A stretch of 64,000 nucleotides of DNA from Pseudoxanthomonas sp. JBR18 (GTDB taxonomy: Bacteria; Pseudomonadota; Gammaproteobacteria; Xanthomonadales; Xanthomonadaceae), in the NCBI RefSeq assembly GCF_028198165.1, contig NZ_CP116339.1:4409001-4473000 (forward strand), given 5' to 3'. The translations under genes were made by a program, and so were the position numbers. This document shows positions 11,141 through 55,022 of the stretch, one piece after another (the stretch's first letter is position 1; each line of letters begins with the position of its first letter). Under the pieces are notes generated by a model. It was given only the letters and a program-made list of their open reading frames with translations. It was not told the DNA's origin and did no database searches.

Positions 11141-11308
11141 GGGGCAAGCATCCTCGTGACGGTGGGAGGGACGGCAGCCGCCGATGCGGCGACCCAGCCT
11201 GACTATCCTGTCAGTTTTCCCCGCCGGGAAGTTGCTTTGGTCATGGGTCCCGGCACCAGACGCTTACGCCGTCTGCCCGCCGGCCGGAGGCCCCGGTGCG
11301 GCGTGGGC

Positions 11309-11767
11309 TTAGTCCTCGCCCAGCAGGCCTGCCCGCGACCAGCGCGCGATGCGCAGATCGTCGGGCACGTCCTGAGGCGAGGCCGGATACGCCGCCATCC
11401 GCGCGCGCGTGGCCCAGCTGAAGTAGTCCAGCAGCGCCTGCCGCAGCGATGCATCGTCCAGCCCGATATCGTCCAGTGCCAGCGCGAAACAGGCGATGGC
11501 CTGCGCATCCATCTCCTCGTGCACGCCATTGCCGCTGTGCATGCGCACTACGTCCGACTCGGAGCCGAACCGACTCGAATACGCCGCCGGCCCGCCCCAC
11601 GCTTCGACCCAATACGCAGCCAGGCGCTCGGTGTGCTGCGGGTGGAAGCCGTGACTGAAGGCGTGCGCGACCACCGGATCGGCCAGCACCCGCACGTGCC
11701 AGGCATGGGCCAGGCGATGTACGGCGTCCGGACCGCCCATGTCCTGCAGAAGCGTGGTGGTGTTCAT
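11309..11767 (-). CDS. Truncated haemoglobin (group II-like globin)
   Basis: A 152-residue globin-fold protein. The segment AFSHGFHPQHTERLAAYWVEAWGGPAAYS matches the truncated globin B-E region; positions 40-63 carry the key W-x-E-A-x-G-G. H77 in VVRMHSGNG is the probable proximal haem ligand. The C-terminal helix reads LLDYFSWATRARM. Such globins bind oxygen or NO in the cytoplasm and are tied to NO detoxification or microaerobic growth. It appears monocistronic, with a 316-bp upstream gap containing a 14-bp palindrome. Subgroup is by impression only. Confidence 0.75.
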   Translation of the reverse strand: MNTTTLLQDMGGPDAVHRLAHAWHVRVLADPVVAHAFSHGFHPQHTERLAAYWVEAWGGPAAYSSRFGSESDVVRMHSGNGVHEEMDAQAIACFALALDDIGLDDASLRQALLDYFSWATRARMAAYPASPQDVPDDLRIARWSRAGLLGED

Positions 11768-12083
11768 CGTGTGAGCTTGAACGAAAAACGGGACGCTCGG
11801 CGTCCTGGGAAGTTGTTTTGAAGGAAGCCGCCAGCGCCCGAGCGCCCATGCACTGAACGCGCCACACCCAATGGCAGCTTAAGCTGCATCAACCTGTCCT
11901 GGCGTCCGGGGCGGGGCGGGTCACGCTTGGACGGCAGGATTTGCTTCAAGCCTTTCGTATGCCTGCAACGCCGCGGAAGCCTTGCAAGGACACGGGACAA
12001 CTTGCCACGCGGGCTTGCCCAGGCGTGTCCCCGCATGGTGAGCGGCTTCGGAAGGCATAGGGGCCAGCACTTCAGCCCTGGTC
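11768..12083. other. 316-bp gap upstream of the globin gene; holds a palindrome, no gene seen
   Basis: No credible ORF or RNA gene is visible. The region carries the globin promoter side and lies downstream of the GlxA-type regulator gene. The perfect 14-bp palindrome GCAGCTTAAGCTGC at 11874-11887 is about 107 nt before the globin start and is the only clear operator-like element. Confidence 0.5.
11874..11887. promoter_or_regulatory. 14-bp palindrome, candidate operator for the globin gene
   Basis: GCAGCTTAAGCTGC is a perfect inverted repeat with no spacer. Its AT core in a GC-rich gap and its distance from the globin ATG suit a dimeric repressor or activator. No regulator can be named. Confidence 0.3.
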
Positions 12084-13037
12084 TCATGCGTCGGGCCTGC
12101 TACGCGTATGCCGCCGCAACGCCTGAGGTGCCACGCCGAAACGACGCAAGAACACTTCGCGCAGATGCCGACGGTCGCGAAAGCCCGTCTCGCGGGCGAT
12201 CACTTCCAGCGGATGGCGCCCCTGTTCCACCATGACACGCGCGGCCTCCACGCGCAGCGCTTCGATGGCCTTGGCAGGTGACTGGCCGGTTTCCGCCGTA
12301 AACACCCGGCTGAATTGCCGAGGGCTCAGGCTGACCTGCTCGGCAAGCTGTTCCACGCTCAGAGAACTGCCCAAATGGCGCCTTGCATAGTCGAGCGCCT
12401 GCTGGATACGGTCGCTGCGCGGCGCGAGTTCCAACAGTTCCGAATGCTGGGTCTGTCCGCCGGCGCGGCGATGGTGCATGACAAGCCGGTGCGCGACGGC
12501 ACGTGCCACATCCGGCCCCAGATCCTTCTCGACCATGCCAAGCGCCATGTCCAGCGCGGCGGTCATGCCAGCCGATGTCCAGAACGGGCCATCCAGGATG
12601 AAGATCCGATCGGGTTCCACCTGGATATCGGGGTAGCGTTGCTGCATGTGCTCGGCGAAAGCCCAGTGCGTGGTGGCCCGGCGCTGCGCGAGCAGGCCGG
12701 CCTCGGCCAGGATGAAGCCCCCGGTGCAGATGCCCGCCACGCGCCTGGCCCGAGGCGCCACGCGGCGAACGAATTGCAGCAGCGCCTGGGAAGCCGGACG
12801 GGCCAGCGGATCGATCACCCCCACCAGCATCCAGGTATCGGCGCGACTGCGCCCGGTGAGTTCACGCGTCACCACCCGCATGCCCAGGGATGCATTGACC
12901 TCCCCGCCTTCAGGCGACCAGTTCTCCACCACATAGAAGGTCTCGCCGGCCACCAGGTTGGCGAACTCGAACACCGCCTGCGAGCCCAGCGCCATGACCT
13001 GGAAACCGTCCCCCAGTACATAACCAACGCGATGCAT
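12084..13037 (-). CDS. GlxA-type transcriptional regulator (DJ-1/PfpI-like domain plus AraC HTH)
   Basis: 317 residues from the ATG at 13037. The N-terminal class-I-glutamine-amidotransferase-like domain has the nucleophile-elbow segment VAGICTGGFILAEAGLL with its Cys. The C-terminal AraC double helix-turn-helix includes YARRHLGSSLSVEQLAEQVS, SPRQFSRVFTAETGQSPAKA and [21 protein letters not shown]. GlxA-family regulators usually sense small metabolites (carnitine, betaine or arginine types). It is divergent from an SDR gene across 116 bp that includes the AT-rich patch TAAAAAACGAATATATG, so that gene is the likely target. Longer starts to 13154 would run into the SDR start. Confidence 0.85.
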   Translation of the reverse strand: MHRVGYVLGDGFQVMALGSQAVFEFANLVAGETFYVVENWSPEGGEVNASLGMRVVTRELTGRSRADTWMLVGVIDPLARPASQALLQFVRRVAPRARRVAGICTGGFILAEAGLLAQRRATTHWAFAEHMQQRYPDIQVEPDRIFILDGPFWTSAGMTAALDMALGMVEKDLGPDVARAVAHRLVMHHRRAGGQTQHSELLELAPRSDRIQQALDYARRHLGSSLSVEQLAEQVSLSPRQFSRVFTAETGQSPAKAIEALRVEAARVMVEQGRHPLEVIARETGFRDRRHLREVFLRRFGVAPQALRRHTRSRPDA

Positions 13038-13153: not shown

Positions 13154-13954
13154 ATGTCTACGCAGTCCCCATCCACGCCTGGTGTCGCCCTGGTGACAGG
13201 CGCCTCTTCCGGTATCGGCGCGGTCTACGCCGAGCGCCTGGCCGGCCGCGGACATGACCTGATCCTGGTCGCACGCGATCGTCAGCGACTCAACGCCCTG
13301 GCCGAGCGCATCACCAGCCAGACCCAACGCTCGGTCGAAGTCATCGCCGCCGACCTGGGCCGCCGCGACGCGTTGGCGACGGTCGAGCAACGACTCAAGC
13401 AGGACGCCGACATCACGGTTCTGGTCAACAACGCAGGCATCGGAACCCACACCCCGTTGCTGGAGAGCGATGTCGAGCGCATGACCGCGATGGTCGAGCT
13501 CAACGTCACCGCACTGATGCGCCTGACCTATGCCGCCGTCCCGCAGATGGTGGCGCGCGGCCGCGGGACCCTCATCAACATTTCTTCCATCGTCAGCCTG
13601 GCGCCGGAAGCCCTCAATGGCGTCTACGGCGGCAGCAAGGCCTTCGTGACCGCCTTCAGCCAGTCGCTGCAAAAGGAGCTGGAAGGGACCGGCGTGCACG
13701 TCCAGGCGGTGCTGCCGGGTGCGACGGCCACCGACTTTTGGGCCACTGGCGGCCTGCCGGTGGAGCACCTTCCCAAGGAGATCGTCATGCGCACCGAAGA
13801 TCTGGTCGACGCCGCCCTGCGTGGCCTGGACCGTGGCGAACGGATCAGCATCCCCTCGCTGCATGCCGGCGAGGAGTGGGACGCCTTCGAGGCCGCCCGC
13901 CAGACGATGTCAGCGCATCTGTCCAGCGATACCGTGGCCGCGCGCTACCGTTGA
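13154..13954 (+). CDS. Short-chain dehydrogenase/reductase
   Basis: An NAD(P)-dependent oxidoreductase of the classical SDR family, 266 residues. The cofactor motif TGASSGIG is at about 15-22 and NNAG at 92-95. The catalytic Ser is in NISSI (144/145), with Y158 and K162 in YGGSK. Residues after the active site (LPGATATDFW) are typical of broad-specificity SDRs; the substrate is unknown. The ATG at 13154 has GGAGAAAG upstream. It is divergently arranged with the GlxA-type regulator, which suggests regulation by it. Confidence 0.9.
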   Translation: MSTQSPSTPGVALVTGASSGIGAVYAERLAGRGHDLILVARDRQRLNALAERITSQTQRSVEVIAADLGRRDALATVEQRLKQDADITVLVNNAGIGTHTPLLESDVERMTAMVELNVTALMRLTYAAVPQMVARGRGTLINISSIVSLAPEALNGVYGGSKAFVTAFSQSLQKELEGTGVHVQAVLPGATATDFWATGGLPVEHLPKEIVMRTEDLVDAALRGLDRGERISIPSLHAGEEWDAFEAARQTMSAHLSSDTVAARYR

Positions 13955-14087
13955 TCACTCGATTTTCCTCGTCCGCGCGCGGCGACCGGGAACGCACGCC
14001 GTCCAACGGGTTCCCGATGAGGCAGCCTGCTCCGCGCGCGGCCAGGGGAAGGCGTTGCAGCGCAGGGCTTTGCCAGTTCGCAATGGA

Positions 14088-15230
14088 TCAGGCGAGCAGC
14101 CCCTCCATGAGCGGCACCTTGCCGCTGTCCGGAAACACCGCCGTCTGCAGCCGACCTTCGTCCACCTTCAGGTGACCGGCCAGCACGGCCTTGAACAGGG
14201 CGCGCATGTCGGTGGTGACGCGTAGGTCGCGGCCTTCGTTGAGGGCGGCGGGCAACAGGCCGGGCCAGTCGCCGGCGATGCGGCCACCGCGCACCGCGCC
14301 GCCGGCCAGCAGGGCCACGCCGCCGGTGCCGTGGTCGGTGCCACCGGTGCCGTTGACCCTGGCGGTGCGGCCGAATTCGGTGACCACCACCACCACGGTC
14401 CTGCCCCAGATGGCCCGGGCGTTGTCATGAAAGGCGCGCAGGCCGTCGTCCAGTTCGGCGAGCTTGTTCTTCAGCACGCCGGCCTGGTTGGCGTGGGTAT
14501 CCCAACCCGAGTCCTCGACGAAACCGATGCGCGGGCCGTCGGCCTGCGACATGAAGCGCGCCGCGGCCGCGGTGGCCTCCGCCATGCGCCCTTTGCCGCC
14601 CGCGCCCTTGCCGCCGCTCACGCCCTGCGTGTCCATGGCACGCTGGAACGAGGCGGCCAACACGGGATCGTGCGCATACAGGCCTTGCAGGCGCTGCAGC
14701 AGGATCGGATTGACCGCCTCGGGCAACGGCGGCGACCACGTCGAGGCATCGCCTGGCCCCCGCATGATCAGCGGCATCACCGTGGTGATCGACAAGGCCT
14801 CGGTGCCGGCCATCGCGCTGGCACAGCGGTTGAGCCAGCCGGTGCTGGCGCCGCTGGGGCGGGCGCTGCCGTTCTCCAGGCAGTCCTGGGCCTCGAAATG
14901 CGAGCGCTGCTGGTACGGCGGGGCAATCGCCACCACCGGCAGCAACTGACGCTGGCCATACAGCGTGTGGGCAAAGGCCAGCGACGGGTGCAGGCCGAAA
15001 TGCGCGTCCAGCTTGAGCGTGTCGGTCGGTGCCAGGTCGCCGCGCAAGTCGCGATACGCAGGATCTTCGGTGGGCACCAGCACATGCAGCCCATCCAGGC
15101 CGCCGCGCAGCAGGATCACCAGCAGGCGCGTGTCGTTGGCGCGTTGCGCAGCGGCCCCGAGCTGGGGCCACAGGGTGAGCGTGGTCAGGGCGCCAGCGGC
15201 GCCAAGGAAGGCACGTCGGGTCAGGGACAT
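14088..15230 (-). CDS. DUF1501 family Tat-exported protein
   Basis: A 380-residue protein with a twin-arginine signal (MSLTRRAFLGAAGALTTL), so it is probably folded in the cytoplasm and exported by Tat. The body matches the DUF1501 fold, related to alkaline phosphatase/sulfatase-like enzymes: LLVILLRGGLDGLHVLVP near the N-terminus, DSGWDTHANQ, and VVVVVTEFGRTARVNG then GTDHGTGGVALL. Biochemical role is unknown. The start follows GGAGG by 8 nt and lies 2 nt after the stop of the DUF1800 gene. The two are therefore coupled, a very common pairing. Confidence 0.9.
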   Translation of the reverse strand: MSLTRRAFLGAAGALTTLTLWPQLGAAAQRANDTRLLVILLRGGLDGLHVLVPTEDPAYRDLRGDLAPTDTLKLDAHFGLHPSLAFAHTLYGQRQLLPVVAIAPPYQQRSHFEAQDCLENGSARPSGASTGWLNRCASAMAGTEALSITTVMPLIMRGPGDASTWSPPLPEAVNPILLQRLQGLYAHDPVLAASFQRAMDTQGVSGGKGAGGKGRMAEATAAAARFMSQADGPRIGFVEDSGWDTHANQAGVLKNKLAELDDGLRAFHDNARAIWGRTVVVVVTEFGRTARVNGTGGTDHGTGGVALLAGGAVRGGRIAGDWPGLLPAALNEGRDLRVTTDMRALFKAVLAGHLKVDEGRLQTAVFPDSGKVPLMEGLLA

Positions 15231-15232
15231 CG

Positions 15233-16618
15233 TCAGGTCCTCCATTGGAAGGCGGGGCTGGCGAACAGCAGGGCCAGTCCATCGCGCGGGGATTCGGCAC
15301 GGGTCAGCGCGGTGCGCGTGTCGGCATCGAGCGTGTCGGCAAACACCGCCTGCGCGGTGCCCAGCGGGTCCAGGCGGTCTTCCGGCACGGCTTCGGCCAG
15401 GGCCTGGCTGGCCTGCACCCGCTTCCACAGCGCATCCGGGCCGCTCCATTGCGCGGCATCGTCCTCGAACCCGGCCGGCGAGCGCGGCGTGAACGGCGGC
15501 TGCCCCATGCGGGCGAGCAGGGTCACCTGCAACTGCGGCCGATCCTTGGCCAGCGCGCCGCCGGCGCGCAGTGCCGAGAGCAGGTAGTCGTCGGGCGTCT
15601 TGAACTTGCGCGCCTGCGGGCCCCACGCGGCCGGGTGCCGGATCAGCGCGGCATACACCTGCGCCAGTGCGCCACCACTGTCGCGCCAGGCCTTGACCAT
15701 CGCCTCCACCACCGGCTGCGGCGGGGTGTCGCTGATCAGGTGACGCGCGATCTTGGTCGAAACATGCCGCGCCGTGGCCGGATGCACCGCCAGGTCGGCC
15801 AGGATGGCGCGACCCTGCGCCACGCCGGCTTCCGCGTAGCGCCGACCCATGACCGTGCGCGCGCCGGCCTCGTGCGCGTTGGCGCGGAAGGCGAAAGCCG
15901 AATCCGGCGCGCCGCGCTGAAAGTCCTGTGGCATCGGCACGCCCCAGCCGGTGATGGCCTTGGCGAATTCGGTCACATCGGTCTGCGTGTAGCCGCCATG
16001 CACCCCCACGGTGTGCAGCTCCATGATCTCGCGCGCGAGGTTTTCGTTGAGGCCCGGCGCCTTGTCGGGGTTGCGCTGGCGCACGCGGGTGGCGAGTTTC
16101 GAATCCGCCCCCACCGAGCGCACGTTGTCCAGGAAGCGCAGCATGGCCGGGTGCGTCTCCACCGCCAGCAGCAGGTCACCAAAGTGGCCCAGCACGTGCG
16201 GGCGGATCGCCTCGCGCTCCATCGGTGCGGCGTAGGGGGCGGCCACGCGCTTGTCCACCGAGACGGCGAAGTGGTTCGACCAGAACCGCACCATGCGTTC
16301 GACGAAACTGGCCTGGCTGGCCACCGCGACCTGCTGGCGCAGCGCCAGCTCATGCAACTGGTCGCGGCGCATGTCGCGCGCCATGTCCTTGGGCGGGGGC
16401 ATGCCCTGTTGGCGGGCTTGACGCCGGGCCTGCTGCAGGGCGATGTTCTGGCGCAGGTAGGCCAGACTGTCGGGCAGGGCCTGCAGGGCCGACGCCGACG
16501 GAGGCGACTTGAGCTGGGCGAGCAACCAGCCCTGCGGGTCGCCCAGGCCTGCGAGTTCTCCCGGACGGGCACCCAGGCCGAAACGGTTGGCGGCACTGAC
16601 CGACTGAGCGGTGACCAT
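15233..16618 (-). CDS. DUF1800 family protein
   Basis: 461 residues with recognisable DUF1800 features: AANRFGLGARPGEL at the N-terminus, RMVRFWSNHFAVS, ENLAREIMELHTVGVHGGYTQ and ITGWGVP. The family nearly always sits beside DUF1501 genes, as here, and the pair probably works together at the cell envelope; no activity is established. The ATG at 16618 has GAGGAA upstream and gives the conserved N-terminus. No clear signal peptide is seen. Confidence 0.9.
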   Translation of the reverse strand: MVTAQSVSAANRFGLGARPGELAGLGDPQGWLLAQLKSPPSASALQALPDSLAYLRQNIALQQARRQARQQGMPPPKDMARDMRRDQLHELALRQQVAVASQASFVERMVRFWSNHFAVSVDKRVAAPYAAPMEREAIRPHVLGHFGDLLLAVETHPAMLRFLDNVRSVGADSKLATRVRQRNPDKAPGLNENLAREIMELHTVGVHGGYTQTDVTEFAKAITGWGVPMPQDFQRGAPDSAFAFRANAHEAGARTVMGRRYAEAGVAQGRAILADLAVHPATARHVSTKIARHLISDTPPQPVVEAMVKAWRDSGGALAQVYAALIRHPAAWGPQARKFKTPDDYLLSALRAGGALAKDRPQLQVTLLARMGQPPFTPRSPAGFEDDAAQWSGPDALWKRVQASQALAEAVPEDRLDPLGTAQAVFADTLDADTRTALTRAESPRDGLALLFASPAFQWRT

Positions 16619-27007: not shown

Positions 27008-27742
27008 ATGCACACCACGCTACGCCCGCTGCTGCTCGCCCTCACGCTCGCCCTGGGAGGTACCGCCATGACAGCGTCCGCACAGACCGCCAGCCCGTCC
27101 GGCTACACACTGCCCGCTGACGGCACCCTGCTGTCGATCTCTTCACAGGCCGAGGCCAGCCGCGCACCGGACATCGCCACGATCTCCGCCGGCGTCGTCA
27201 CCCAGGCGGCCGACGGCAACACCGCCATGCGTGACAACGCGCGTCAGATGACCCAGGTCATGGCGGCGATCAAGCAGGCCGGCATTGCCGACAAGGACAT
27301 CCAGACCAGCGGCGTGATGCTCAACCCTCAGTACGACTACCGCGACAATCAGGCGCCGAAGATCACCGGCTACCAGGCCACCAATACCGTCAGCCTGAAG
27401 GTCCGCAAGATCGCCGACCTGGGCCAGGTGCTCGATGCGTTGGCCGCCCACGGCGCCAACCAGATCAACGGTCCGACCTTCGAGATCGACGATCCCGACC
27501 CCGTCTACGACCAGGCGCGCCTGGCGGCCCTGAAGCAGGCCCAGGCACGCGCCGAGACCTACGCCCGCGGGCTGGGCCTGAAGGTGCGGCGCGTGGTCAG
27601 CCTCTCGGAAGGCAGCACCGGCGGCGGCCCGCGCCCGATGATGATGATGGCCCGGGCCAAGGAGGCCGACAGCACCCCGGTCTCCCCAGGCGAAACCACG
27701 CTGAGCGTCAGCATCGAGGCGGTGTTCGAACTGGGACGTTAG
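27008..27742 (+). CDS. SIMPL-domain (DUF541) secreted protein
   Basis: A periplasmic protein of 244 residues with a Sec signal peptide (hydrophobic [11 protein letters not shown], cleavage near ASA-Q). The SIMPL/DUF541 domain follows ([50 protein letters not shown]). Related proteins include the BP26/YggE group, often linked to oxidative-stress protection; the biochemical role is unclear. Its last 109 bp recur at 34677-34785, so the 3' end is involved in a duplication or insertion event. AGGA precedes the ATG. It is divergent from maf. Confidence 0.9.
27634..27742 (+). repeat. Direct repeat copy 1 (3' end of the SIMPL gene)
   Basis: This 109-bp stretch, ending with the TAG stop, matches 34677-34785 with only three mismatches (A/C in the C-run, T/C two bases before the stop's end, and TAG versus TAA). 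The similarity stops abruptly at both ends. The two copies flank the receptor-sulfotransferase block in direct orientation, 6.9 kb apart. Confidence 0.92.
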
Positions 27743-27768
27743 TCCTGCAGCACTCCCCCAAGGTGAGC

Positions 27769-27796
27769 AAAGGGCCGCGGCAACGCGGCCTTTTCT
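27769..27796 (+). terminator. Intrinsic terminator after the SIMPL gene
   Basis: AAAGGGCCGCG pairs with CGCGGCCTTTT (11 bp with one G-U), loop GCAA, followed by C/T-rich sequence. Only copy 1 of the repeat has this terminator; copy 2 does not. Confidence 0.85.
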
Positions 27797-27854
27797 ATGC
27801 CTGGCGCAGGGTGGAACGGGGAAACGAATTACATGCGCAAACATGAATGAACGA

Positions 27855-27866
27855 CCTAGCGCTAGG
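27855..27866. promoter_or_regulatory. 12-bp palindrome upstream of the TonB-dependent receptor
   Basis: CCTAGCGCTAGG is a perfect inverted repeat 132 nt before the receptor start, in an unusually AT-rich stretch for this window (27835-27960). It is a candidate operator; no regulator gene is adjacent. Confidence 0.3.
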
Positions 27867-27892
27867 CAACATACACGGAAATTAATTTTTCG

Positions 27893-27920
27893 TGACTTTC
27901 ACGGGAGCGACCGCTAAATT
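27893..27920 (+). promoter_or_regulatory. Possible promoter of the TonB-dependent receptor
   Basis: TGACTT (27893-27898) and TAAATT (27915-27920) with a 16-bp spacer are the best sigma-70-like pair in the AT-rich leader. The match to consensus is modest. Confidence 0.3.
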
Positions 27921-27998
27921 TCGGTTAACCGTGTGCCAGATGATGTCAATCATGACGCACGGGACCCTTTGGTTCATTCTGTAGTCAGGAGAGAGACT

Positions 27999-30900
27999 GT
28001 GGCAGGTAACCGTACGAAACAGGCGATGCAGCGCACCGCCTTGAGCGTCGCTCTCGGCATGTGCTTCAGCACTGCCGTTTTTGCGCAATCCAATACACAG
28101 GGCGCAATTTTTGGCCAGGCTATGGCCGGCTCCACGGTTCAGATCGTCAACCCCGACACCGGGTTTTCGCGAAGCACAACGGTCAGCAACGACGGCACCT
28201 ACCGCTTCTCTGCACTTTCGACCGGCAGTTACAACGTCACGTTGCAGGACCCCAGCGGCGCCGTCGTTGCATCGCGCGAAGGCGTCTACGTCAGTATCGG
28301 TGGCGGCACCCCCGTTAATTTCACCAGCGGCAGCAACGCCACCACCCTGGACACTGTGACCGTGCGCGGGAGTGCGATCGCCAATCCAATCGATGTCTCA
28401 TCCGTGGAATCGGCCACGGTCTTGACAGCGGAACAACTTGCCAGGATCCCAGTCGCACGTGACACCACCTCGGTGGCGCTGCTCGCCCCGGGCACCGTCC
28501 GTGGGGATAACGCATTCGGCAATCTCGCTTCCTTTGGCGGCTCGTCCGTCGCTGAGAACCAGTACTACGTCAACGGCTTCAATGTCACCAACACGTTCCG
28601 CAATCTGAACTTCTCGCAGATTCCCTTCGAAGCAATCGCCGAACAGCAGGTCAAGACTGGCGGCTACGGCGCCGAATTTGGTCGCTCGACCGGTGGCGTG
28701 GTCAACATGATCACAAAGCGCGGCACGAACGAATTCCACGCGGGTGCGAACGTGTTCTGGTCACCGGACTCCCTGCGCGCTAACACCAAGAACGTCTACT
28801 ACGCCAATCCACTGACGCCTGATTCCTACGGCAAACTGCTGGAAGATAATTCAAAGGACGAGGAGGACCAGTGGGTTGGGGCGGTATGGGCCAGCGGCGC
28901 GCTGGTCAAGGACACTCTGTTTGCCTATGGCCTGGTTCAATACACCCAGAAGGACAGCCAGTCCTATGGCGATGTCGACTCCTTCACTAACAATAAGGAT
29001 TCAGTCGACAACCCGAACTGGCTGTTGAAGATGGACTGGAACATCAACGACAGCAACAAGCTGGAATTCACGGCCTTCAGCGACACCAGGAAGACCACCA
29101 GCCGCACCTATCTCAATGATCCTGGCAGCCTGGAGCGCCGCAACTTGGTGGGCACGCAGCACAGCGAGAATGGCGGCGAGAATTACATCGGCAAGTACAC
29201 TGGCTACCTGACCGACAACTTCACCCTGACGGCGCTGTATGGTCACGGCACTTTTGACCGATCCACCTACCTGCGCACGGCAACCGGCGACCTGGTGGAA
29301 TATGGCGGCGACCTCGCCGTGCCCGCCACTGGCTGCCCGATCATCGTTGATGCCCGCTCTGATGCACGCAAGGCTGCGACCGGTGTTTACGGTAGTACCT
29401 GCAACATCACCGGCGGCTCAATCGACCGCAAGGACTCCAAGGACACCCGCGATCAGTATCGTATTGACGCTGAGTGGGCACTGGGCGATCACCTGATCCG
29501 CTTCGGCTACGACCGTGACGACTACGAGTCGGTCGCGGGCCAGGCCTATGAAGGCGGCCGCGTGTGGCGTTATTCCACCAACGTGGGTCCGGATGGAGAA
29601 CTGAACACGGCTGACGACTTCGACGTTGTGCGCGAGCAGATCGTGCAGCAGGGTTCAACCGTCAAGCTCAAGCAATGGGCCTTCTACGTTGAAGACAGCT
29701 GGAACATCACCGATAACTTCCTGGCTTACCTCGGTGCGCGCTGGGACACCTTCGAAAATCTGAATGGCAATGGGCAGTCTTACGTCAAGATCGACAAGCA
29801 ATTCGGTCCGCGCCTGGGCTTCTCATGGGACGTCAACGGCGATTCCAGCCTGAAGATCTACGGTAATGCAGGCCGTTACGCGCTGCCCCTGACCCCCAGT
29901 GTGGCCGTCCGTGGCGCCAGCGCGTCGTTGTTCACGCGACAGAACTTCAATTTCAACCAAGTGGACCCGGTCACCGGCGCCCCCATTGATCCGACACCGC
30001 GCAGCGGGCTTCAGTATGTCAACGGTGAATTCGGCGAACCGAAGAACCCCGCGACGATTGCAGCCAAGAACCTCGATCCAATGTACCAGGACGAGTTCAT
30101 TCTTGGCTTCGAGAAGCAGCTGACCGAGCACCAGTCGATTGGCGCCAAGGGAACCTATCGCAAGCTCAAGGCCGCGATCGACGACAACTGCGACTACACG
30201 CCGATTTATGATCGGGCCGTTGCAGACGGGTTCGATCCGGTCCTCCCGAGCTCCGGTTTTCCTTACTGCCGCATGTTCAATCCGGGCAAGAGCCCCGTGT
30301 ACGTGACCGACATCGAAGACGATGGTGTCCTTACCGAATACAAGATCGATGGCTCGCTGCTCTCGCCGGACGCCAAGCGCAGCTACAAGGCACTTGACAT
30401 GTTCTGGAATGGCTATTGGGAACGCCTGTTTGTGCAGGCTTCCTGGACTATGTCCTGGAACAAGGGCAATACCGAAGGCGGGGTCAAATCCGATATTGGC
30501 CAAGCCGACACCAGCGTGACCCAGGACTTCGACTACAAGGAGCTGATGGTCGATGCTTACGGCTATCTGCCGAATGACCGACGTCACAGCTTCAAGATCT
30601 TCGGCAACTACCAGATGACCGATGAGTGGTCAGTCGGTGCCAATCTGATTGTGCAGTCGGGTCGGCCGAAAAACTGCCTGGGCGACCTGGATCTCGATCC
30701 GGAGCCCGGCGCAGCGAATTTCAGCCCACATCCGTACGGATCGAGCTTCTTCCGTTGCGGCACGACCGAACTAGGCGCCTCGGGTCCTGTTTCCGCCGTG
30801 CCGCGCGGAACCGCCGGGCGCCTGCCCTGGACCAACACGCTCGACCTCAATGTAGCTTATGCGCCTCAGTGGGCGCCGGGACTGCAATTCAAGGTGGACG

Positions 30901-31055
30901 TGTTCAATGTTTTCAACAACCAGAAGGTGATTGCGGTTAATGAAGTAGCGGAGAACGGCTACAACACCGACGGCACACCGCTGAACACGTACGGTTCTGC
31001 TCGCGCCTATCAGGCGCCACGCAGCGCACGCTTCATGGTGCAATACGACTTCTGA
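27999..31055 (+). CDS. Oar-like TonB-dependent outer-membrane receptor
   Basis: An outer-membrane active transporter powered by TonB-ExbBD, 1018 residues from the GTG at 27999 (AGGAGAG 5 nt upstream). The signal peptide ends near VFA-QS (residue 29). A carboxypeptidase-regulatory-like beta domain follows (about 34-107), then a TonB-box-like DTVTV (118-122), a plug (about 130-250, with YYVNGFNVTN) and a long beta barrel ending in a terminal Phe (FMVQYDF). In Myxococcus, Oar is tied to export of the PopC protease, and xanthomonads encode many relatives; ligand unknown. Codon use looks less GC-biased than in flanking genes. It has its own terminator, and two sulfotransferase genes follow. Confidence 0.93.
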   Translation: MAGNRTKQAMQRTALSVALGMCFSTAVFAQSNTQGAIFGQAMAGSTVQIVNPDTGFSRSTTVSNDGTYRFSALSTGSYNVTLQDPSGAVVASREGVYVSIGGGTPVNFTSGSNATTLDTVTVRGSAIANPIDVSSVESATVLTAEQLARIPVARDTTSVALLAPGTVRGDNAFGNLASFGGSSVAENQYYVNGFNVTNTFRNLNFSQIPFEAIAEQQVKTGGYGAEFGRSTGGVVNMITKRGTNEFHAGANVFWSPDSLRANTKNVYYANPLTPDSYGKLLEDNSKDEEDQWVGAVWASGALVKDTLFAYGLVQYTQKDSQSYGDVDSFTNNKDSVDNPNWLLKMDWNINDSNKLEFTAFSDTRKTTSRTYLNDPGSLERRNLVGTQHSENGGENYIGKYTGYLTDNFTLTALYGHGTFDRSTYLRTATGDLVEYGGDLAVPATGCPIIVDARSDARKAATGVYGSTCNITGGSIDRKDSKDTRDQYRIDAEWALGDHLIRFGYDRDDYESVAGQAYEGGRVWRYSTNVGPDGELNTADDFDVVREQIVQQGSTVKLKQWAFYVEDSWNITDNFLAYLGARWDTFENLNGNGQSYVKIDKQFGPRLGFSWDVNGDSSLKIYGNAGRYALPLTPSVAVRGASASLFTRQNFNFNQVDPVTGAPIDPTPRSGLQYVNGEFGEPKNPATIAAKNLDPMYQDEFILGFEKQLTEHQSIGAKGTYRKLKAAIDDNCDYTPIYDRAVADGFDPVLPSSGFPYCRMFNPGKSPVYVTDIEDDGVLTEYKIDGSLLSPDAKRSYKALDMFWNGYWERLFVQASWTMSWNKGNTEGGVKSDIGQADTSVTQDFDYKELMVDAYGYLPNDRRHSFKIFGNYQMTDEWSVGANLIVQSGRPKNCLGDLDLDPEPGAANFSPHPYGSSFFRCGTTELGASGPVSAVPRGTAGRLPWTNTLDLNVAYAPQWAPGLQFKVDVFNVFNNQKVIAVNEVAENGYNTDGTPLNTYGSARAYQAPRSARFMVQYDF

Positions 31056-31084
31056 TCGGAGCCCTTGGGCGCCCTCAGAATGAC

Positions 31085-31116
31085 AGACGGCCGCCGAAAG
31101 GCGGCCGTCTTCTTTG
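31085..31116 (+). terminator. Intrinsic terminator of the receptor gene
   Basis: AGACGGCCGCC pairs with GGCGGCCGTCT (11 bp) around a GAAA tetraloop, followed by TCTTTG. It separates the receptor from the sulfotransferase genes transcriptionally, unless there is read-through. Confidence 0.88.
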
Positions 31117-31159
31117 TTCGTAAGCATCCTGGTCCCGTTATGCTGCGAATTCTTACGAC

Positions 31160-32764
31160 ATGAACTTCAGTTCCATGCGCAACACGCTAGACACACTGTG
31201 GGCAGAAGGTCAGGCTCTGGAAACCTCCCGCGACCTGCTGGGTGCGCGCCAGATCTACGAGCGCGTCGTCGCGCTCGATGCGAGCCATATTGCGGCACGG
31301 TTGCGGCTCTCGCGCTTCGCCCAAGTCTCCGATGAGTACATTCTCGCGCGACGGCATGTGATTGAGGCTGCGGACGCCATCCGCTCGGGGGCGAGCACCC
31401 GATTGGTCGCATTCGTCACCCAGCGACTACTCGATTTCGCAGAGGAAGGCGAGGTTGCGGCACTGGTACTCTCGCTTGAATGGGCCGATCCAGAGATTCT
31501 GAGGCAAGCCGCCCCGCTGGCCCAGCACCTCTGGTTGTCGGGACGGTACGAGGACGCAATGCGCTTTCTCGACTCGGTGGAACCTCGCCTTCCGCCGAAT
31601 GCGCTACTGCTCCTCACGCGCGCGAATGTCCTGCGCTACTTGGGCAATATGCAAGAGGCAAGCCGCCATTACCACCGCGCACTCGAGGTGGAACCCGCGC
31701 TGGTCGATGCGCATTGGGCCCTGGCCACGCATGAACGGGATCCAGCGCCTCCATTGAGACTTGAACGTCTCCGCGCAGCCGCCAGAAGCCACACCAGAGG
31801 CAGTATTGAAGCCGCTCACCTGCGCTATGCGCAGTTCCGCGACCTCGACCATCTCGATCGCCGGGCAGAGGCGTGGGCGGCACTGCAACGCGGCGCCAGC
31901 ATCATGGCTTCCGCTTCACGACACGACGCATCGCGCGACCACCAGGCGCTACGCCGCCTGGAGACACTCGGATGCCAGCCCTCGCAGGCTGACACTGGCA
32001 AGCCGACGCAACCCACGCCGCTCTTCATCGTCGGCCTCCCCCGGACCGGCACGACCTTGCTGGATCGGATCCTCGGCAACCATGGCTGGGTCAGCAGCAC
32101 TGGGGAACGCAACGATTTCGCGGCTGCCGTCAGCGAGGTATCAGACCACTTTTTCGGCACGCTGCTACAGGAGGAACTGCCCTCGACGTTCCTCGATATC
32201 GATCTGAAGCAAGTTGGTCACCTGTATGTCCAGCGGTTGCGCCGCCACGCATCCGCAACTGCATATGCGATCGACAAAAATCCGCAAAACCTTTTCAACC
32301 TCCCCTTGATCGTACGCGCACTGCCCAACGCCAAGATCCTCATCCTCGAGCGCGACCCCATGGATGCCGCATTCTCCAACCTCAAGGAGTTGTTCCAGGG
32401 AGGCGCCTATGCGTATAGCTATGATTTCGCTTCGCTAGCGGTGCGAACCTCCGGGGCCATGCGACTCGCACACGACTGGCAGAAGCAGAACCCAGGCGCT
32501 ATCCGTATCGTGCCCTATGCAGCACTCGTGCAGACGCCTGACGAAACGATTAAGCACCTGCTTGAATTTATCGGACTCCCGCCCGCTGACGGATTGACCG
32601 ACATCACGTCGAACCGCTCGGCCGTGACTACCGCCAGCAGCAGCCAGGTGCGCGAGCCGCTGAACACTCGCGCGTTGGGTGCATGGCGGCGCTATGCATC
32701 CGAACTGGCGCCGCTCCAAGCGCTACTCGAACAGGAGCGCGGTGCGAATGTCCCACGTGCCTAG
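31160..32764 (+). CDS. TPR-sulfotransferase 1
   Basis: A putative PAPS-dependent sulfotransferase, 534 residues. The N-terminal half (about 1-270) is helical with tetratricopeptide-like repeats (for example NALLLLTRANVLRYLGNMQEA, SRHYHRALEVEPALVDAHWA). The C-terminal sulfotransferase domain has the 5'-phosphosulfate loop VGLPRTGTTLL (291-301), DKNPQN (372-377) and the 3'-phosphate motif ERDPMDAAFSNLKELF (397 onward). The TPR-plus-sulfotransferase layout suggests a protein or peptide substrate; a small-molecule acceptor cannot be excluded. No signal peptide, so cytoplasmic. Its stop overlaps the next gene by 17 nt. An ATG at 31175 is an alternative start. Confidence 0.88.
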   Translation: MNFSSMRNTLDTLWAEGQALETSRDLLGARQIYERVVALDASHIAARLRLSRFAQVSDEYILARRHVIEAADAIRSGASTRLVAFVTQRLLDFAEEGEVAALVLSLEWADPEILRQAAPLAQHLWLSGRYEDAMRFLDSVEPRLPPNALLLLTRANVLRYLGNMQEASRHYHRALEVEPALVDAHWALATHERDPAPPLRLERLRAAARSHTRGSIEAAHLRYAQFRDLDHLDRRAEAWAALQRGASIMASASRHDASRDHQALRRLETLGCQPSQADTGKPTQPTPLFIVGLPRTGTTLLDRILGNHGWVSSTGERNDFAAAVSEVSDHFFGTLLQEELPSTFLDIDLKQVGHLYVQRLRRHASATAYAIDKNPQNLFNLPLIVRALPNAKILILERDPMDAAFSNLKELFQGGAYAYSYDFASLAVRTSGAMRLAHDWQKQNPGAIRIVPYAALVQTPDETIKHLLEFIGLPPADGLTDITSNRSAVTTASSSQVREPLNTRALGAWRRYASELAPLQALLEQERGANVPRA

Positions 32765-34313
32765 TTATACGGAGCTCCACGCCTTGGCCGAAGCTGCAGC
32801 GGGACGAGGTCAGTTTCCGGAGGCGCTTGCCCTCTTCGGACAAGCGCTTCTGCTCAGACCGGATGACGCCACCACGCTGATGCAGCTGTCGTATTTGCAC
32901 TCAATGCTGGGGCACTACGGTATTGCGCATGAGCATGCGCTGCGCGCCTACGCCACCGGTACCAACTCGCCCAGCGTCTTGATGGAGCTGATCCCACGTC
33001 TGCGCACCTTCAACGAGGTGCCGGCCCTGCGTGAATGCATACGGCGCATGATGCCGTTGTCCCGCATCCCCATTCCCGTGTTGATCAAGGCAGCTGCGCA
33101 TCTGAGCTACGTCAACCTACCGGAAGAAGCCATCACGTTACTGGACGAGGCCAAGCGCGCTGACCCTGACTTTCCGACGACCTTGTTGGCAAGGACGCAG
33201 GTCTTGACCTATCTCGGTCGCTTTCGCGAGGCCGAACAGGATGTCCTGCGCGCACTCAGACGCGCGCCTGAAATCGCGCAGGGATGGTGGCTACAGGCTC
33301 CGCTACGCAAGCAACAGGCCAATGCAAATCACGTCGACGCCATCCGTGCGGAACTTGCACGCCCACATCGCAAGCATGAAGACGTTGCCTTGCTGGGCTT
33401 CGCCCTGCACAAGGAGCTGGACGATCTCGGTGACATAGCTGGCGCCTGGGATGCCTTAATGCTGGGCTGCCATGCCAAACGCGCGGCACTCAGGTATTCC
33501 TCCACGGATACCATCAAACTGATGGACGCCCTGATCAATTACTCACCTGTAATGACGCCTGTGCCGGTGCAGGAAACTGGACCGAAGCCAATCTTCATCG
33601 TGGGCATGCACCGCTCTGGCACCACCTTGCTCGAACAACTGCTTGACGGCTCACCACAGGTGCGTGGAATTGGAGAGTTGTACGACTTCACCAGCGCTAT
33701 GCGCTACGTGACTGATCACCATTGCCCTGGCGTGGTCGATCTCGAATTGATCCGACGCGCCGCACACGCCGACCTCAAGGTCGCCGGCCAGCGCTACCTT
33801 GGTGGCGTTGCATGGCGCCTGCGAGGCGAGGCGTTCTTCACTGACAAGTTGCCATCCAACTTCCTCAATATCGGCTTCATCGCGTCAGCACTGCCACGGG
33901 CCAGGATCCTGCATATGATGCGCGACCCGATCGAGACCTGCTTTTCCAACTTGCGCGAGCTGTTTTCCGGCGCGAATCCCTACAGCTACGACATGACGGA
34001 GCTGGCCAGCTACTACAAACAGTATCAACGCCTGATGGCACATTGGCATCGACGCTTCCCTGGACGCATCCTCGATGTGGACTATTCCCGATTGGTGAAT
34101 GATCCAGAGGCGACATTGCGCGAGGTTTGCGACTTCTGCGAGCTGGACTTTGATCCGGCCATGCTGGAGCTGGATAACCGCGAGCGCGGTGTGGTAACGG
34201 CCAGTGCCGTCCAGATCCGCGCCGGAATCCAGGCCCGCCAGACACCAAAGTGGGCACCATATGAAGCCCTGTTGCAGCCGCTGATCAAGGCGTTGGCTGA
34301 GGGTGAAGCATGA
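32748..34313 (+). CDS. TPR-sulfotransferase 2
   Basis: A second putative PAPS-dependent sulfotransferase, 521 residues, with the same architecture as its upstream neighbour. TPR-like helices include LAEAAAGRGQFPEALALFGQ and ARTQVLTYLGRFREAEQDV. The catalytic domain has VGMHRSGTTLL (285-295), DKLPSN (366-371) and MRDPIETCFSNLRELF (391 onward). Similarity to the first copy is clear at motifs but low elsewhere, so this is not a recent duplication. It starts 17 nt inside the upstream gene, with AGGAG 11 nt before the ATG. The two are surely cotranscribed and may form a heteromer or act on different substrates. Confidence 0.88.
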   Translation: MSHVPSYTELHALAEAAAGRGQFPEALALFGQALLLRPDDATTLMQLSYLHSMLGHYGIAHEHALRAYATGTNSPSVLMELIPRLRTFNEVPALRECIRRMMPLSRIPIPVLIKAAAHLSYVNLPEEAITLLDEAKRADPDFPTTLLARTQVLTYLGRFREAEQDVLRALRRAPEIAQGWWLQAPLRKQQANANHVDAIRAELARPHRKHEDVALLGFALHKELDDLGDIAGAWDALMLGCHAKRAALRYSSTDTIKLMDALINYSPVMTPVPVQETGPKPIFIVGMHRSGTTLLEQLLDGSPQVRGIGELYDFTSAMRYVTDHHCPGVVDLELIRRAAHADLKVAGQRYLGGVAWRLRGEAFFTDKLPSNFLNIGFIASALPRARILHMMRDPIETCFSNLRELFSGANPYSYDMTELASYYKQYQRLMAHWHRRFPGRILDVDYSRLVNDPEATLREVCDFCELDFDPAMLELDNRERGVVTASAVQIRAGIQARQTPKWAPYEALLQPLIKALAEGEA

Positions 34314-34676
34314 TGGCTTGTGCTGCGTTTTTTAATGCTCTGCGAAACCCTGCTCTCAGGCTGAGTGCATTGCTCCGGGGTAACTGAGCAACGACAACTC
34401 AGATGATCCACGGATCGAAACTTCCTCAAGTTTCAAGAGGGCGAATGAATTCCGCTCGAATTTGCGTCACCTATCATCGCGCCGCCGTAACCACAGGCGC
34501 AGGCTGAACGACACATGGTCGCCCAAACGTAGATCGGCAGGCCACACCTCTTCTTCATCCTGAGTGAGCCCTCGCTCAGCAATGACCTTGCCTTGTCGGC
34601 GATGTCGGATCTGAAGCTGTGCGATGCCGGCACCGGGCCGCGCCAGCCTCCGGGCCAACCTCCTGCGAGGGGATTA
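34314..34676. other. 363-bp segment between the sulfotransferase genes and repeat copy 2; no convincing gene
   Basis: Relatively AT-rich at its left end (GTTTTTTAATG near 34328) but without a stem before the T-run, so no clear terminator. A minus-strand frame of 63 codons (34467-34658) starts only with TTG directly abutting an AGGAGG and is not recognised. The segment may be degraded DNA at the right edge of the inserted block. Confidence 0.5.
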
Positions 34677-34785
34677 CCCGATGATGATGATGGCCCGGGC
34701 CAAGGAGGCCGACAGCACCCCGGTCTCCCCCGGCGAAACCACGCTGAGCGTCAGCATCGAGGCGGTGTTCGAACTGGGACGCTAA
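34677..34785 (+). pseudogene. Displaced 3' fragment of the SIMPL gene (direct repeat copy 2)
   Basis: 109 bp matching 27634-27742 with three mismatches. It keeps the SIMPL reading frame to a TAA stop (ending [10 protein letters not shown]) but has no upstream coding sequence, so it is a 35-codon orphan tail. It marks the right boundary of the receptor-sulfotransferase block. The fragment shows that the SIMPL 3' end was duplicated or that DNA was inserted there with regeneration of the gene end. Confidence 0.92.
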
Positions 34786-34917
34786 CCACGCGCAGGGGCG
34801 CGCAGCCACTTGCCTTGCCAGGTTCCAACGCGCAGAGTCGGAAGCGCGGCCGTCGCAACCCCCTTCGCGGCGGTCGTGCGTTGATTCCGAAACATGTCCA
34901 GACACCGGAGGTGGTCC

Positions 34918-35589
34918 ATGGTTCGCACGTATCCGCATGACACAGAGGCCGGGCTCAACCCCGCGCGCATTGGCGGGATCGCCACGGCGATCCTGGTGCA
35001 CGCGGTGGCGCTCATGCTGTTGTTGATTCCCGCCACCCTACCCCCACTGGCCCAGCGGTTGCCCGATCGGCGTCCTCAGCTGGAAATCATCAAAAAGCCG
35101 GTCGAGGTGCCCGTGACGGCGCCGCCGCCGGCAGATCCCAAGCCCCCCATCGCCGCCCCACGCACACCGACAACGGCCACGCCGGTCGTTTCCCCACCTG
35201 CACCCGAACCGGTCGAGATCACCCAGGCAGATCCGATGCCATGGACGCCACCGGCCACCATCGCGCCTGCAGCACCCACCAGCGCCGCGCCGGCACCGTC
35301 AACGGGCCCGATCAGCGCCTCACACCTGTCCTACGTCAGTGCGCCCGCGCCCCGCTATCCACGCGCGTCCATCGCCCGCCGTTCAGAAGGCACGGTGATG
35401 CTGCGCGTGCTGGTGGACGTGGACGGCAAGCCGCTGGAGGTGGTGATCGAGACTAGCAGCGGCGATCGGGAGTTGGATCGCGCCGCGCGTCAGCAGGTGC
35501 TGGACAACTGGCGGTTCCAGCCCGCCATGCAGGATGGTCATCCGGTCCAGGCCTACGGTCGGGTCCCGGTGGACTTCCGCCTGCGCTGA
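34918..35589 (+). CDS. TonB-like energy transducer
   Basis: Transmits proton-motive force from ExbBD to outer-membrane receptors. 223 residues. A short cytoplasmic N-terminus is followed by one membrane segment (about 20-40) and a Pro/Ala/Thr-rich periplasmic spacer (about 55-145). The C-terminal TonB domain includes PRYPRASIARRSEGTVMLRV, a DxxGKPLEV strand and VLDNWRFQPAMQDG. The ATG at 34918 has GGAGG upstream. exbB and exbD are not adjacent. It lies just outside the right repeat, so it may have been the original neighbour of the SIMPL gene. Confidence 0.9.
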   Translation: MVRTYPHDTEAGLNPARIGGIATAILVHAVALMLLLIPATLPPLAQRLPDRRPQLEIIKKPVEVPVTAPPPADPKPPIAAPRTPTTATPVVSPPAPEPVEITQADPMPWTPPATIAPAAPTSAAPAPSTGPISASHLSYVSAPAPRYPRASIARRSEGTVMLRVLVDVDGKPLEVVIETSSGDRELDRAARQQVLDNWRFQPAMQDGHPVQAYGRVPVDFRLR

Positions 35590-50459: not shown

Positions 50460-50585
50460 GCCCGGGCGCCAGCCGGTGCCCATGACCTTCGACACCGGCC
50501 CGCCTCCCGGCGCCACGTTACAGTCCCACGATTGCCCGGACCACCCGCGGCAAGAGCGACTTCACGGTTATCCAAGGGAGCCTAC

Positions 50586-52688
50586 GTGCGCACGTCCAAG
50601 ACCAAGATCCTGCTGCTCACCCTGTCCATCGCCACCGCACTGGCGGCCTGCAAGCAATCCGACGACCAGGCCCCGGCCACCTCGACCCCGCCTGCCGACG
50701 CGCCCAAGGCCCTGACCCTGGACGATTCCAAGCTGCCGCCGTTCAACAGCTTCAAGGCCAGCGACCTGGACAAGAACGCCAACGTCTGCACCGACCTGAA
50801 CGCCTACGCCAACCAGAACTGGCTGGCGGCCAACCCGGTCCCGGGCGACCGCACCAGCTGGGGCAGCTTCGAGGTATTGAGCGAGCGCTCGGAAGCGGTC
50901 CAGCACCAGCTGGCCGAGCAGGCCGCCGCCGACACCAACGCCACCGGCGTGGAGAAGATCGTCGGTGACTTCTGGGCCACCGGCATGGACCGGGACAAGA
51001 TCGAGCAGCAGGGCATCGCGCCGATCCAGGGGGAGCTGACCGCGATCGACGGGCTGACCGACCAGGCCAAGATCACCGACTACCTGCGCACCAGCGCGGC
51101 CAAGGGCCAGAACATGCTGTTCGGCTTCGGCGCCAACGCCGACTTCAAGGCCTCGGACATGAACATCGCCTACGCGATGCAGGGCGGCCTGGGCCTGCCC
51201 GATCCGGAGTACTACACCAGCGCCGAAAACAAGGCCAAGCTGGAAGCCTACCAGGCGCACATCGCCAAGACCCTGGAGCTGGCCGGCATCGCCCCGGAGG
51301 CCGCCGCCGCCCAGGCCCAGCAGGTCATCGACTTCGAGACCCGCCTGGCCAAGGTGTCCAAGACCAGCACCGAACTGTCACGCCATGTCGAGTTGTTCTA
51401 CAACCCGGTCACCCTGGAAGAGGCCGACAAGCTGACCCCCAACTGGTCCTGGACCGAGTTCTTCAAGTCCCAGGGCGTGACCCCGCCGGAGAAGTTCTCG
51501 CTGGCCATCCCGGCCTTCCACGAGGAAGTGTCCAAGATGCTGGCCGATACCGACCCGGCTGCCTGGCAGGCCTACCTGCGCTTCCACACCATCGACGAGG
51601 CCAGCCCGTACCTGAGCAAGCCGTTCGTGGATGAGAACTTCGCCTTCTGGAGCAAGACGCTGCGTGGCCAGAAGGAAATGAAGGACCGCTGGAAGCGTGT
51701 GCTGGGCACGATCAACCGCCAGGTCGGCGAGACCATGGGCCAGCTCTACGTCAAGGTCGCCTTCCCGCCGGAAGCCAAGCAACAGATGGAACAGCTGGTG
51801 GGCAACCTGCGCACCGCGCTCAAGGCGCGCATCGAGAAGCTGGACTGGATGAGCCCGGAGACCAAGGAAAAGGCCATCGCCAAGTGGAACACCTTCACTC
51901 CCAAGATCGGCTATCCGGACAAGTGGCGTGACTGGTCCGGGCTGAAGACCAGCCGCGAGAGCTACATCGGCAACGTGCTGGCCGCGCAGGAATTCAACTA
52001 CAAGTTCGACCTGTCCAAGATCGGCAAGCCGGTGGACAAGACCGAGTGGGGCATGACCCCGCAGACCATCAACGCCTACTACAACCCGCAGCAGAACGAG
52101 ATCGTGTTCCCGGCCGCCATCCTGCAGCCGCCGTTCTTCGATCCCAAGGCCGATCCGGCCCTGAACTACGGCGGCATCGGCGCGGTGATCGGCCATGAGA
52201 TGACCCACGGCTACGACGACCAGGGCGCGCAGTTCGGGCCCAGCGGCAACTTCGAGAACTGGTGGACCGATGCCGACAAGCAGGGCTTCGAAGCCCGCAC
52301 GGGCAAGCTGGTGGACCAGTTCAACGGCTATACCACCAGCGATGGCGGCAAGGTCAAGGGCGACCTGACCCTGGGCGAGAACATCGCCGACCTGGGCGGC
52401 CTGAACACCGCCTACGACGCGATGAAGGTCGCCGAGCAAGGCAAGCCGGAACCGGAGATCGATGGCCTGACCCAGGACCAGCGCTTCTTCCTCAACTGGG
52501 CCACGGTGTGGCGCCGCAACTTCACCCCGGAAGAGCTGGCCGTGCGCCTGAAGACCGATCCGCATGCCCCGGCCAACTTCCGCGCCAACGGCGCCCCGTC
52601 CAACATGCCGGCCTTCGCCAAGGCGTTCGAATGCAAGCCGGGCGATGCCATGGTGCGCGCGCAGGACAAGCAGGTCGTGATCTGGTAA
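50586..52688 (+). CDS. M13-family metallopeptidase 1, lipoprotein (PepO/neprilysin-like)
   Basis: A zinc endopeptidase of the neprilysin family, 700 residues from the GTG at 50586 (AGGGAG just upstream). The lipoprotein signal ends ATALAAC, lipidated C22. Zinc motif H537-E-M-T-H541 in GHEMTHGYDDQG; third ligand E598 in GENIADLGG; substrate-binding NAYYNP upstream. The C-terminus VVIW fits the family's conserved terminal W. It is periplasm-facing and cleaves peptides. A hairpin follows the stop, and a second M13 gene starts 112 bp later. Confidence 0.95.
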   Translation: MRTSKTKILLLTLSIATALAACKQSDDQAPATSTPPADAPKALTLDDSKLPPFNSFKASDLDKNANVCTDLNAYANQNWLAANPVPGDRTSWGSFEVLSERSEAVQHQLAEQAAADTNATGVEKIVGDFWATGMDRDKIEQQGIAPIQGELTAIDGLTDQAKITDYLRTSAAKGQNMLFGFGANADFKASDMNIAYAMQGGLGLPDPEYYTSAENKAKLEAYQAHIAKTLELAGIAPEAAAAQAQQVIDFETRLAKVSKTSTELSRHVELFYNPVTLEEADKLTPNWSWTEFFKSQGVTPPEKFSLAIPAFHEEVSKMLADTDPAAWQAYLRFHTIDEASPYLSKPFVDENFAFWSKTLRGQKEMKDRWKRVLGTINRQVGETMGQLYVKVAFPPEAKQQMEQLVGNLRTALKARIEKLDWMSPETKEKAIAKWNTFTPKIGYPDKWRDWSGLKTSRESYIGNVLAAQEFNYKFDLSKIGKPVDKTEWGMTPQTINAYYNPQQNEIVFPAAILQPPFFDPKADPALNYGGIGAVIGHEMTHGYDDQGAQFGPSGNFENWWTDADKQGFEARTGKLVDQFNGYTTSDGGKVKGDLTLGENIADLGGLNTAYDAMKVAEQGKPEPEIDGLTQDQRFFLNWATVWRRNFTPEELAVRLKTDPHAPANFRANGAPSNMPAFAKAFECKPGDAMVRAQDKQVVIW

Positions 52689-52711
52689 GCCACCGCGCCC
52701 CTGGCGCACTG

Positions 52712-52734
52712 CGACGCGGCGTCATGCCGCGTCG
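52712..52734 (+). terminator. Hairpin between M13 genes 1 and 2
   Basis: A perfect 9-bp stem CGACGCGGC / GCCGCGTCG has loop GTCAT and is followed by TCACTTATTTCC. The T-richness is weak. It may terminate or attenuate between the two peptidase genes. Confidence 0.55.
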
Positions 52735-52800
52735 TCACTTATTTCCCATGTGCCGCAAGGCACCTTCCATCGGCCGCGAAAGCCAACGAGTCCCGAATAC

Positions 52801-54897: not shown

Positions 54898-54923
54898 GCC
54901 GTCCCGGCTCCTGCGATACCCCA

Positions 54924-54957
54924 GCAAAGGCCCGGCACGTCCGGGCCTTTGCTGTTC
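54924..54957 (+). terminator. Intrinsic terminator after M13 gene 2
   Basis: GCAAAGGCCCGG / CCGGGCCTTTGC is a perfect 12-bp stem with loop CACGT, followed by TGTTCC. Confidence 0.85.
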
Positions 54958-55022
54958 CCGCGGCGCGCTCGCCGGGCCGCGGTTAAGCTGGGAATTGGAA
55001 TCACACACACAAGGATCGTGCC

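Follow-up and report, generated by a model that had tools for sequence, protein, structure and literature searches.

The gap between a SIMPL-domain gene and tonB is, in Pseudoxanthomonas, an exchange site whose contents differ even between sister species. In the stretch of 64,000 nt from Pseudoxanthomonas sp. JBR18 analysed here (the window, meaning that whole stretch), this slot holds a block coding for a TonB-dependent receptor and two sulfotransferases, and the 3' end of SIMPL stands on both sides of it. We consider it probable, with some reserve, that homologous recombination in SIMPL brought in the cassette and that its far end was joined illegitimately inside the resident SIMPL gene, stranding 109 bp. 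The mechanism is already known and the locus is new; a literature search, with most subscription journals outside its reach, found no paper on the slot or on the pairing of the receptor with sulfotransferases.

The SIMPL-domain (DUF541) gene (27008..27742, plus strand; Pfam PF04402, E 1.4e-61) forms the left border of the slot and tonB (34918..35589, plus strand, start ATG 34918; PF03544, E 1.5e-21) the right one. A DNA search of the whole genome (one contig, 4,596,555 bases) located the final 109 bp of SIMPL in two places only, with E values of 2.5e-51 and 2.6e-48, respectively: copy 1 at 27634..27742 and copy 2 at 34677..34785, both on the plus strand, a match far beyond chance. The preliminary description had reported this direct repeat with three mismatches and a stop codon of its own, and the two copies are indeed identical at 106 of 109 positions, differing (copy 1/copy 2) at repeat positions 55 (A/C), 106 (T/C) and 109 (G/A), the last of which makes the stop codon TAG in copy 1 and TAA in copy 2. 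Copy 2, a stranded SIMPL 3' end of 36 codons, codes for residues identical to those of copy 1, and the tonB ATG lies 132 bp past its stop. The repeat identity stops at the stop codon, the point from which two alleles followed by different DNA would be expected to part. At the joint 34676/34677, an unrelated stretch of 363 bp meets the SIMPL sequence of position 27634; no bases match on the left side of the joint, and a GATGATGATGATG run follows immediately on its right.

Between the copies lie, as had also been claimed, an AT-rich leader, an Oar-like receptor, two TPR-sulfotransferases and the 363 bp. The receptor, designated type A from its place in the tree (27999..31055, plus strand, start GTG 27999), exhibited CarboxypepD_reg (PF13620), plug (PF07715) and beta-barrel (PF00593) domains, all above the Pfam cut-off, together with PF25183, and had no match among solved structures. 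The sulfotransferases ST1 (31160..32764) and ST2 (32748..34313, overlapping the end of ST1), both on the plus strand, contain the sulfotransferase domain PF13469 (E 3e-38 and 1.1e-48, respectively) in addition to TPR, with the motifs PRTGTT and RDPMD in ST1 and HRSGTT and RDPIE in ST2, which we take to be the two phosphate-binding motifs of PAPS-dependent sulfotransferases. The receptor would be a TonB-driven transporter that carries a ligand or a product through the outer membrane, and ST1 and ST2 would sulfate a partner molecule. PADLOC held no family for the receptor, ST1 or ST2. In line with the earlier statement, no integrase-like or transposase-like frame was visible among the open reading frames of the block, the large ones of which were put to Pfam. 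The composition of the block departs from that of its flanks, as expected beforehand: GC in 1-kb windows (28001-34500) is 0.57-0.63 versus mostly 0.64-0.75 elsewhere in the window, and GC3 of the three block genes is 0.70-0.75 versus 0.79-0.91 for six flanking genes. This low GC is no sign of a recent arrival in the window genome, a reading that we rejected because GC3 of the slot receptor is low in G004, G007, G009 and G017 as well (0.70-0.79 versus 0.88-0.95 for RNase G), the effect being weaker in G010 and G015. Elsewhere, the window carries at 50532-57378 three frames in a row, each of 715-721 residues and alike in their lipoprotein-like starts, which are possibly tandem paralogues.

The non-coding parts of the slot were inspected in the same way. 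A hairpin with a T tract 3' of SIMPL (27770..27800, plus strand), terminator-like by eye, is common to the window genome and G017 only (90% over 30 bp, E 2.7e-4); a consensus scan called no terminator at these positions. The AT-rich leader of the receptor (27880..27998, plus strand) shows by eye a UP-like A/T tract, GTGACT, 17 nt, TAAATT, then GGAGAGAGA and the GTG start. The leader contains a 17-bp motif, TTAAWTYTTCGTGACTT; allowing at most one mismatch, it occurs once per genome in 7 of 38 genomes of the genus and is absent from the rest. An Oar-type receptor occupies the slot in these seven genomes and in no others, all seven copies, which were aligned, lie in the slot, and the motif precedes type A and type B slot receptors alike, being absent upstream of 16 other Oar-type receptors in six genomes and of five receptor blocks elsewhere. 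Since a consensus promoter scan found no promoter in 27880..27998, the leader is put forward as a putative promoter from its sequence only.

At the other end of the block, the 363 bp between ST2 and copy 2 (34314..34676, no strand assigned) gave no DNA match in the 37 other genus genomes. A 68-residue minus-strand frame within it has no convincing relative, no Pfam family and no plasmid match, its weak matches (G284, G300 and G917, E about 5e-4 to 7e-4) including two, G284 and G300, that are poorly aligned antisense frames; we did not accept it as a gene remnant because its codon-position GC is not gene-like. Over 34314-34914 (601 bp) no phage match was obtained. Three matches to Rfam were at chance level, none above the gathering score.

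The slot was compared among 38 Pseudoxanthomonas genomes, the window genome and 37 relatives, and could be read in 36 of the 37 (G061 was left out); relations among the hosts were taken from protein identities over six flanking genes. In 26 of the 36 relatives tonB directly follows SIMPL, at a distance of about 200-290 bp, so that the SIMPL-tonB order, common in the genus, is probably ancestral, which agrees with the preliminary description. The gap is larger in eight relatives (G004, G007, G009, G015, G017, G024, G025 and G034). The receptor-ST1-ST2 block occupies the same slot, with one SIMPL end each, in G007, G010, G015 and G017. In G004 and G009 the slot is occupied by Oar-type receptors of a different kind (type B), unaccompanied by sulfotransferases, which share 42-44% of amino acids with type A and 77% with each other, and in G025 (locus L058) a 931-residue TonB-receptor-like protein, named by eye from its N-terminus, lies between SIMPL and tonB. 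All five nearest relatives of the window genome have the slot filled.

Receptors gather on either side of tonB (G009 and G007; G025): a second TonB-receptor-like gene, of 930 residues and similar to the 931-residue one of G025, is found between tonB and rlmH in L034 (G009; 9978-12770, along SIMPL) and L036 (G007; 13226-16018, along SIMPL). In L037 (G010) the block is present and tonB is missing between ST2 and rlmH (it was looked for at the locus only), and in L071 (G006; 8-1214, along SIMPL) SIMPL directly adjoins rlmH, tonB being absent there.

The near sisters G004 and G017 share 100% of amino acids in RNase G and 98% in both SIMPL and RlmH. On the left side of the slot, up to the last two SIMPL codons, the two genomes match at 93.3% of positions over 5,659 bp; on the right side, from about 45 bp 5' of the tonB ATG, they match at 94.6% over 5,767 bp. 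Between these break points the two are unlike except for short receptor stretches (69-73%), and their receptors differ. Slot contents differ likewise between G009 and G007, with flanks at 84-86% and a left break about 370 bp past SIMPL, inside the receptor start. The receptor tree unites the five slot blocks in a clade (95/93) whose sister group consists of seven blocks from other sites (100/100), and it places G015, distant as a host, next to G007 (95/96). Window ST1 groups with G007 (99/92), and the window receptor and ST2 with G017 (100/100 and 100/97, respectively), the sulfotransferase tree containing some rows twice because both queries retrieved many of the same genes. These placements indicate that the cassettes move between hosts and are mosaic. 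The window is aligned with G017 without a break from SIMPL into the block, at 80% over 6,970 bp from the RNase G gene to ST1, and G017 gave the best match of the window receptor (89% of amino acids). A recent import from G017 was nevertheless rejected, because the receptor DNA is less alike (79.7%) than SIMPL (84.5%).

Sister receptor-ST1-ST2 blocks stand some 40-46 kb from SIMPL in the annotated genomes G018, G020, G021 and G025, where they adjoin genes whose window relatives lie at about 1.2-3.0 kb (tsf and rpsB by eye). The window gene at 2157-3029 (EF-Ts by eye) has no block beside it; sister blocks are beside it in L117, L118, L120 and L121. A search of eight genomes with the receptor as query gave six receptors of the window type (64% or more), all six adjoining a sulfotransferase pair. 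The loci outside the slot were fetched for having an ST2 relative, and the receptor-sulfotransferase coupling seen there is therefore biased.

The duplicated SIMPL end belongs to none of these relatives. A whole-genome search of 60 relatives with SIMPL as query found a second SIMPL 3' end in the window genome alone, and with repeat copy 1 as query no second match was obtained in any fetched relative locus. Because G007, G010, G015 and G017 hold the block with a single SIMPL end, the duplication is an event private to the window genome and not the normal mark of the block. In view of these four carriers, the earlier view of the repeats as the mark of a block inserting at a gene 3' end is not supported. 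The repeats as attachment sites of an integrative element were likewise rejected, no recombinase being seen and four carriers having no repeats. Direct repeats flanking an insert would also result from a single crossover of the Campbell type with a circle, the 7,043-bp repeat-to-repeat unit, in which the cassette and the 363 bp were linked to a SIMPL 3' end, and in PMC3240628 single crossovers produced duplications of 109-950 bp of the homologous end. However, no replication, mobilisation or recombinase gene was seen in the block, the 68-residue frame, which is all that the plasmid search covered, had no match, and relatives hold the block without repeats; we regard such a circle as very improbable.

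For the order of events, the resident side and the mechanism of joining, we infer instead an imprecise swap; homologous recombination, one of the two routes preferred in the preliminary description, is retained as the likelier one. The SIMPL-tonB gap would serve as a slot where related Pseudoxanthomonas acquire receptor cassettes and exchange them via homologous recombination in the conserved neighbours. Incoming DNA of a near relative, carrying SIMPL, the TAG stop, hairpin, leader, receptor, ST1 and ST2, would have aligned with SIMPL and its surroundings in the resident chromosome, with a crossover 5' of 27634, within SIMPL or beyond it. Its far end, the 363 bp, without a matching partner, would have been joined illegitimately inside the resident SIMPL at 34676/34677, and the last 109 bp, the TAA stop and tonB would be what was left behind from the resident; these two steps would yield exactly the structure observed. 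Joining of this kind is described for Streptococcus pneumoniae, Acinetobacter baylyi and Pseudomonas stutzeri as HFIR, in which one incoming DNA end pairs with its homologue and the other is joined without homology (PMC3240628 and PMC2884548). The window resembles it in that the left border is homologous to the recipient, SIMPL running unbroken into the block as in G017, and differs in that the product alone is seen here, whereas the HFIR experiments report mostly deletions at the joint. Slots free of such a joint are found in other species both empty (26) and filled with this block and one SIMPL end (4). Relatives of ComEC and DprA are present in the genome, which shows little because non-competent-type controls such as E. 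coli also match; transformation, conjugation or transduction may have been the route.

Which side is new was judged from the alleles. Among the 34 relatives with a readable SIMPL stop, TAG is found in one, G017, and TAA is the commonest (22/34). Since the TAG stop, the hairpin and the receptor all match G017 best, the copy 1 tip seems to go with the cassette. Upstream of the stop copy 1 is not G017-like, because at the two sense differences it is copy 2 that agrees with G017. The 132 bp of DNA 5' of tonB (34786..34917, plus strand) weakly resemble the SIMPL-tonB gap of empty-slot relatives, scoring 9.4 bits against an empty-slot gap profile. With the same profile, eight filled relatives reached at most 6.1 bits (one gave none), 200 random window pieces at most 2.4 and ten left-out empty gaps 5.3-105 bits; the nearer relatives G007 and G017, at 6.1 and 5.3 bits, are separated from the window by a small gap only, and local alignment scores of the 132 bp overlap those of shuffles. 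Taken with the stop codons, the hairpin and the receptor match, these scores argue weakly for copy 2 and tonB as the resident, empty-type allele. Because all five nearest relatives have filled slots, an empty resident must be assumed within their clade.

The mirror image of these events would yield an identical structure. There, the block is the resident, the SIMPL 3' end and tonB of an empty-slot relative recombined on the tonB side, the left end was joined illegitimately after the 363 bp, and copy 2 and tonB are the newcomers. With all five nearest relatives filled, a filled resident is the simpler ancestor, and the TAA of copy 2 agrees with the stop of 22 of the 34 relatives. The window TonB, on the other hand, shares 61-65% of amino acids with those of G004, G007, G009 and G017, and that of G004 63-66% with those of G007 and G009; because these distances are similar, nothing suggests that the right flank came from a source beyond the clade. 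We hold this order of events to be unlikely.

The source of the two alleles could be narrowed. The copies are 97% alike and each is merely 81-85% like the five nearest relatives, so that both alleles come from the window's species or very near kin. The two origins proposed in the preliminary description can therefore be, at most, a pair of alleles from within a single species or from very near kin. All three differences between the copies are synonymous, for which the chance is about 0.014 (79 of 327 possible changes being synonymous), or about 0.03 with transitions alone, and this pattern is more in keeping with a pair of functional alleles than with a copy in decay. It also counts against a local duplication, in which a 108-109 bp piece of SIMPL was duplicated ahead of tonB within one lineage with no exchange of alleles. 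That the copies are far closer to each other than to any fetched relative suits a local duplication, and so does their agreement at codon 211, which is ATG in both and valine in the five nearest relatives; methionine stands there in 24 of 35 genus loci, however, so this agreement says little, and it was dropped as a telling sign. Its end would moreover have to fall by coincidence no more than one base from the stop codon, and the foreign 363 bp directly before copy 2 are left unexplained. A local duplication therefore appears quite improbable to us.

In the protein database, which is clustered at 90% and has short contigs, limits to any reading of cassette presence, the nearest SIMPL (98%) stands for five contigs in four sources, the longest of 236,676 bp, whereas the closest ST1 (97%) represents a single 6,178-bp contig from one source, and the nearest receptor is at 90%, which gives a hint only that near kin often lack the cassette.

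The imprecise swap can be set beside other known systems. In the T6SS clusters of V. cholerae, a new module lands next to a conserved anchor and pushes the former 3' gene further downstream; an event of this kind is proposed there and is called rarer than ordinary homologous swaps without leftovers (PMC5361080). The clean swaps in sisters and the one scar in the window genome agree with this; the stranded piece here differs in being a bystander gene end of 36 codons, not a useful immunity gene, and in being one leftover, not an array. Several relatives of the window receptor are called Oar protein in databases. Myxococcus xanthus Oar (PMC6434023) is likewise a TonB-dependent protein, and protease secretion is not implied for the window receptor. 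The ST2 sulfotransferase domain gave weak sequence matches to structures of protein-tyrosine sulfotransferase (TPST2; 8w5z, E 1.1e-5, and 3ap1, E 1.4e-4) and also matched polyketide-type sulfotransferases, the best of these scoring better (4gox, E 2.4e-6). Xanthomonas RaxST is counted among the protein-tyrosine sulfotransferases, from which ST2 differs by its N-terminal TPR part.

The stranded SIMPL end is probably a readable trace of a swap gone wrong, and it predicts that the cassette can be lost cleanly: if the repeats recombined with each other, 7,043 bp would be removed and the SIMPL protein would stay unchanged. Tentatively, and as a possibility that we rate well below an even chance, the gap may be a receptor expression site, in which a single-copy leader (7 of 38 genomes) serves receptors that can replace one another, those of type A coming with two sulfotransferases and those of type B without, and that are swapped as whole cassettes; in the window genome the repeats would let one RecA crossover drop the cassette cleanly, giving receptor-plus and receptor-minus cells with SIMPL intact. 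One cassette type, and not the other, ties the receptor to a sulfotransferase pair, which makes the target of the sulfotransferases, and the reason why one receptor has them, testable questions. A changing pressure on receptor specificity, exerted by a ligand, a phage or a bacteriocin, would explain the swapping. The locus shows clearly how sister species can trade outer-membrane receptors in cassette form, with fixed borders and beside tonB.
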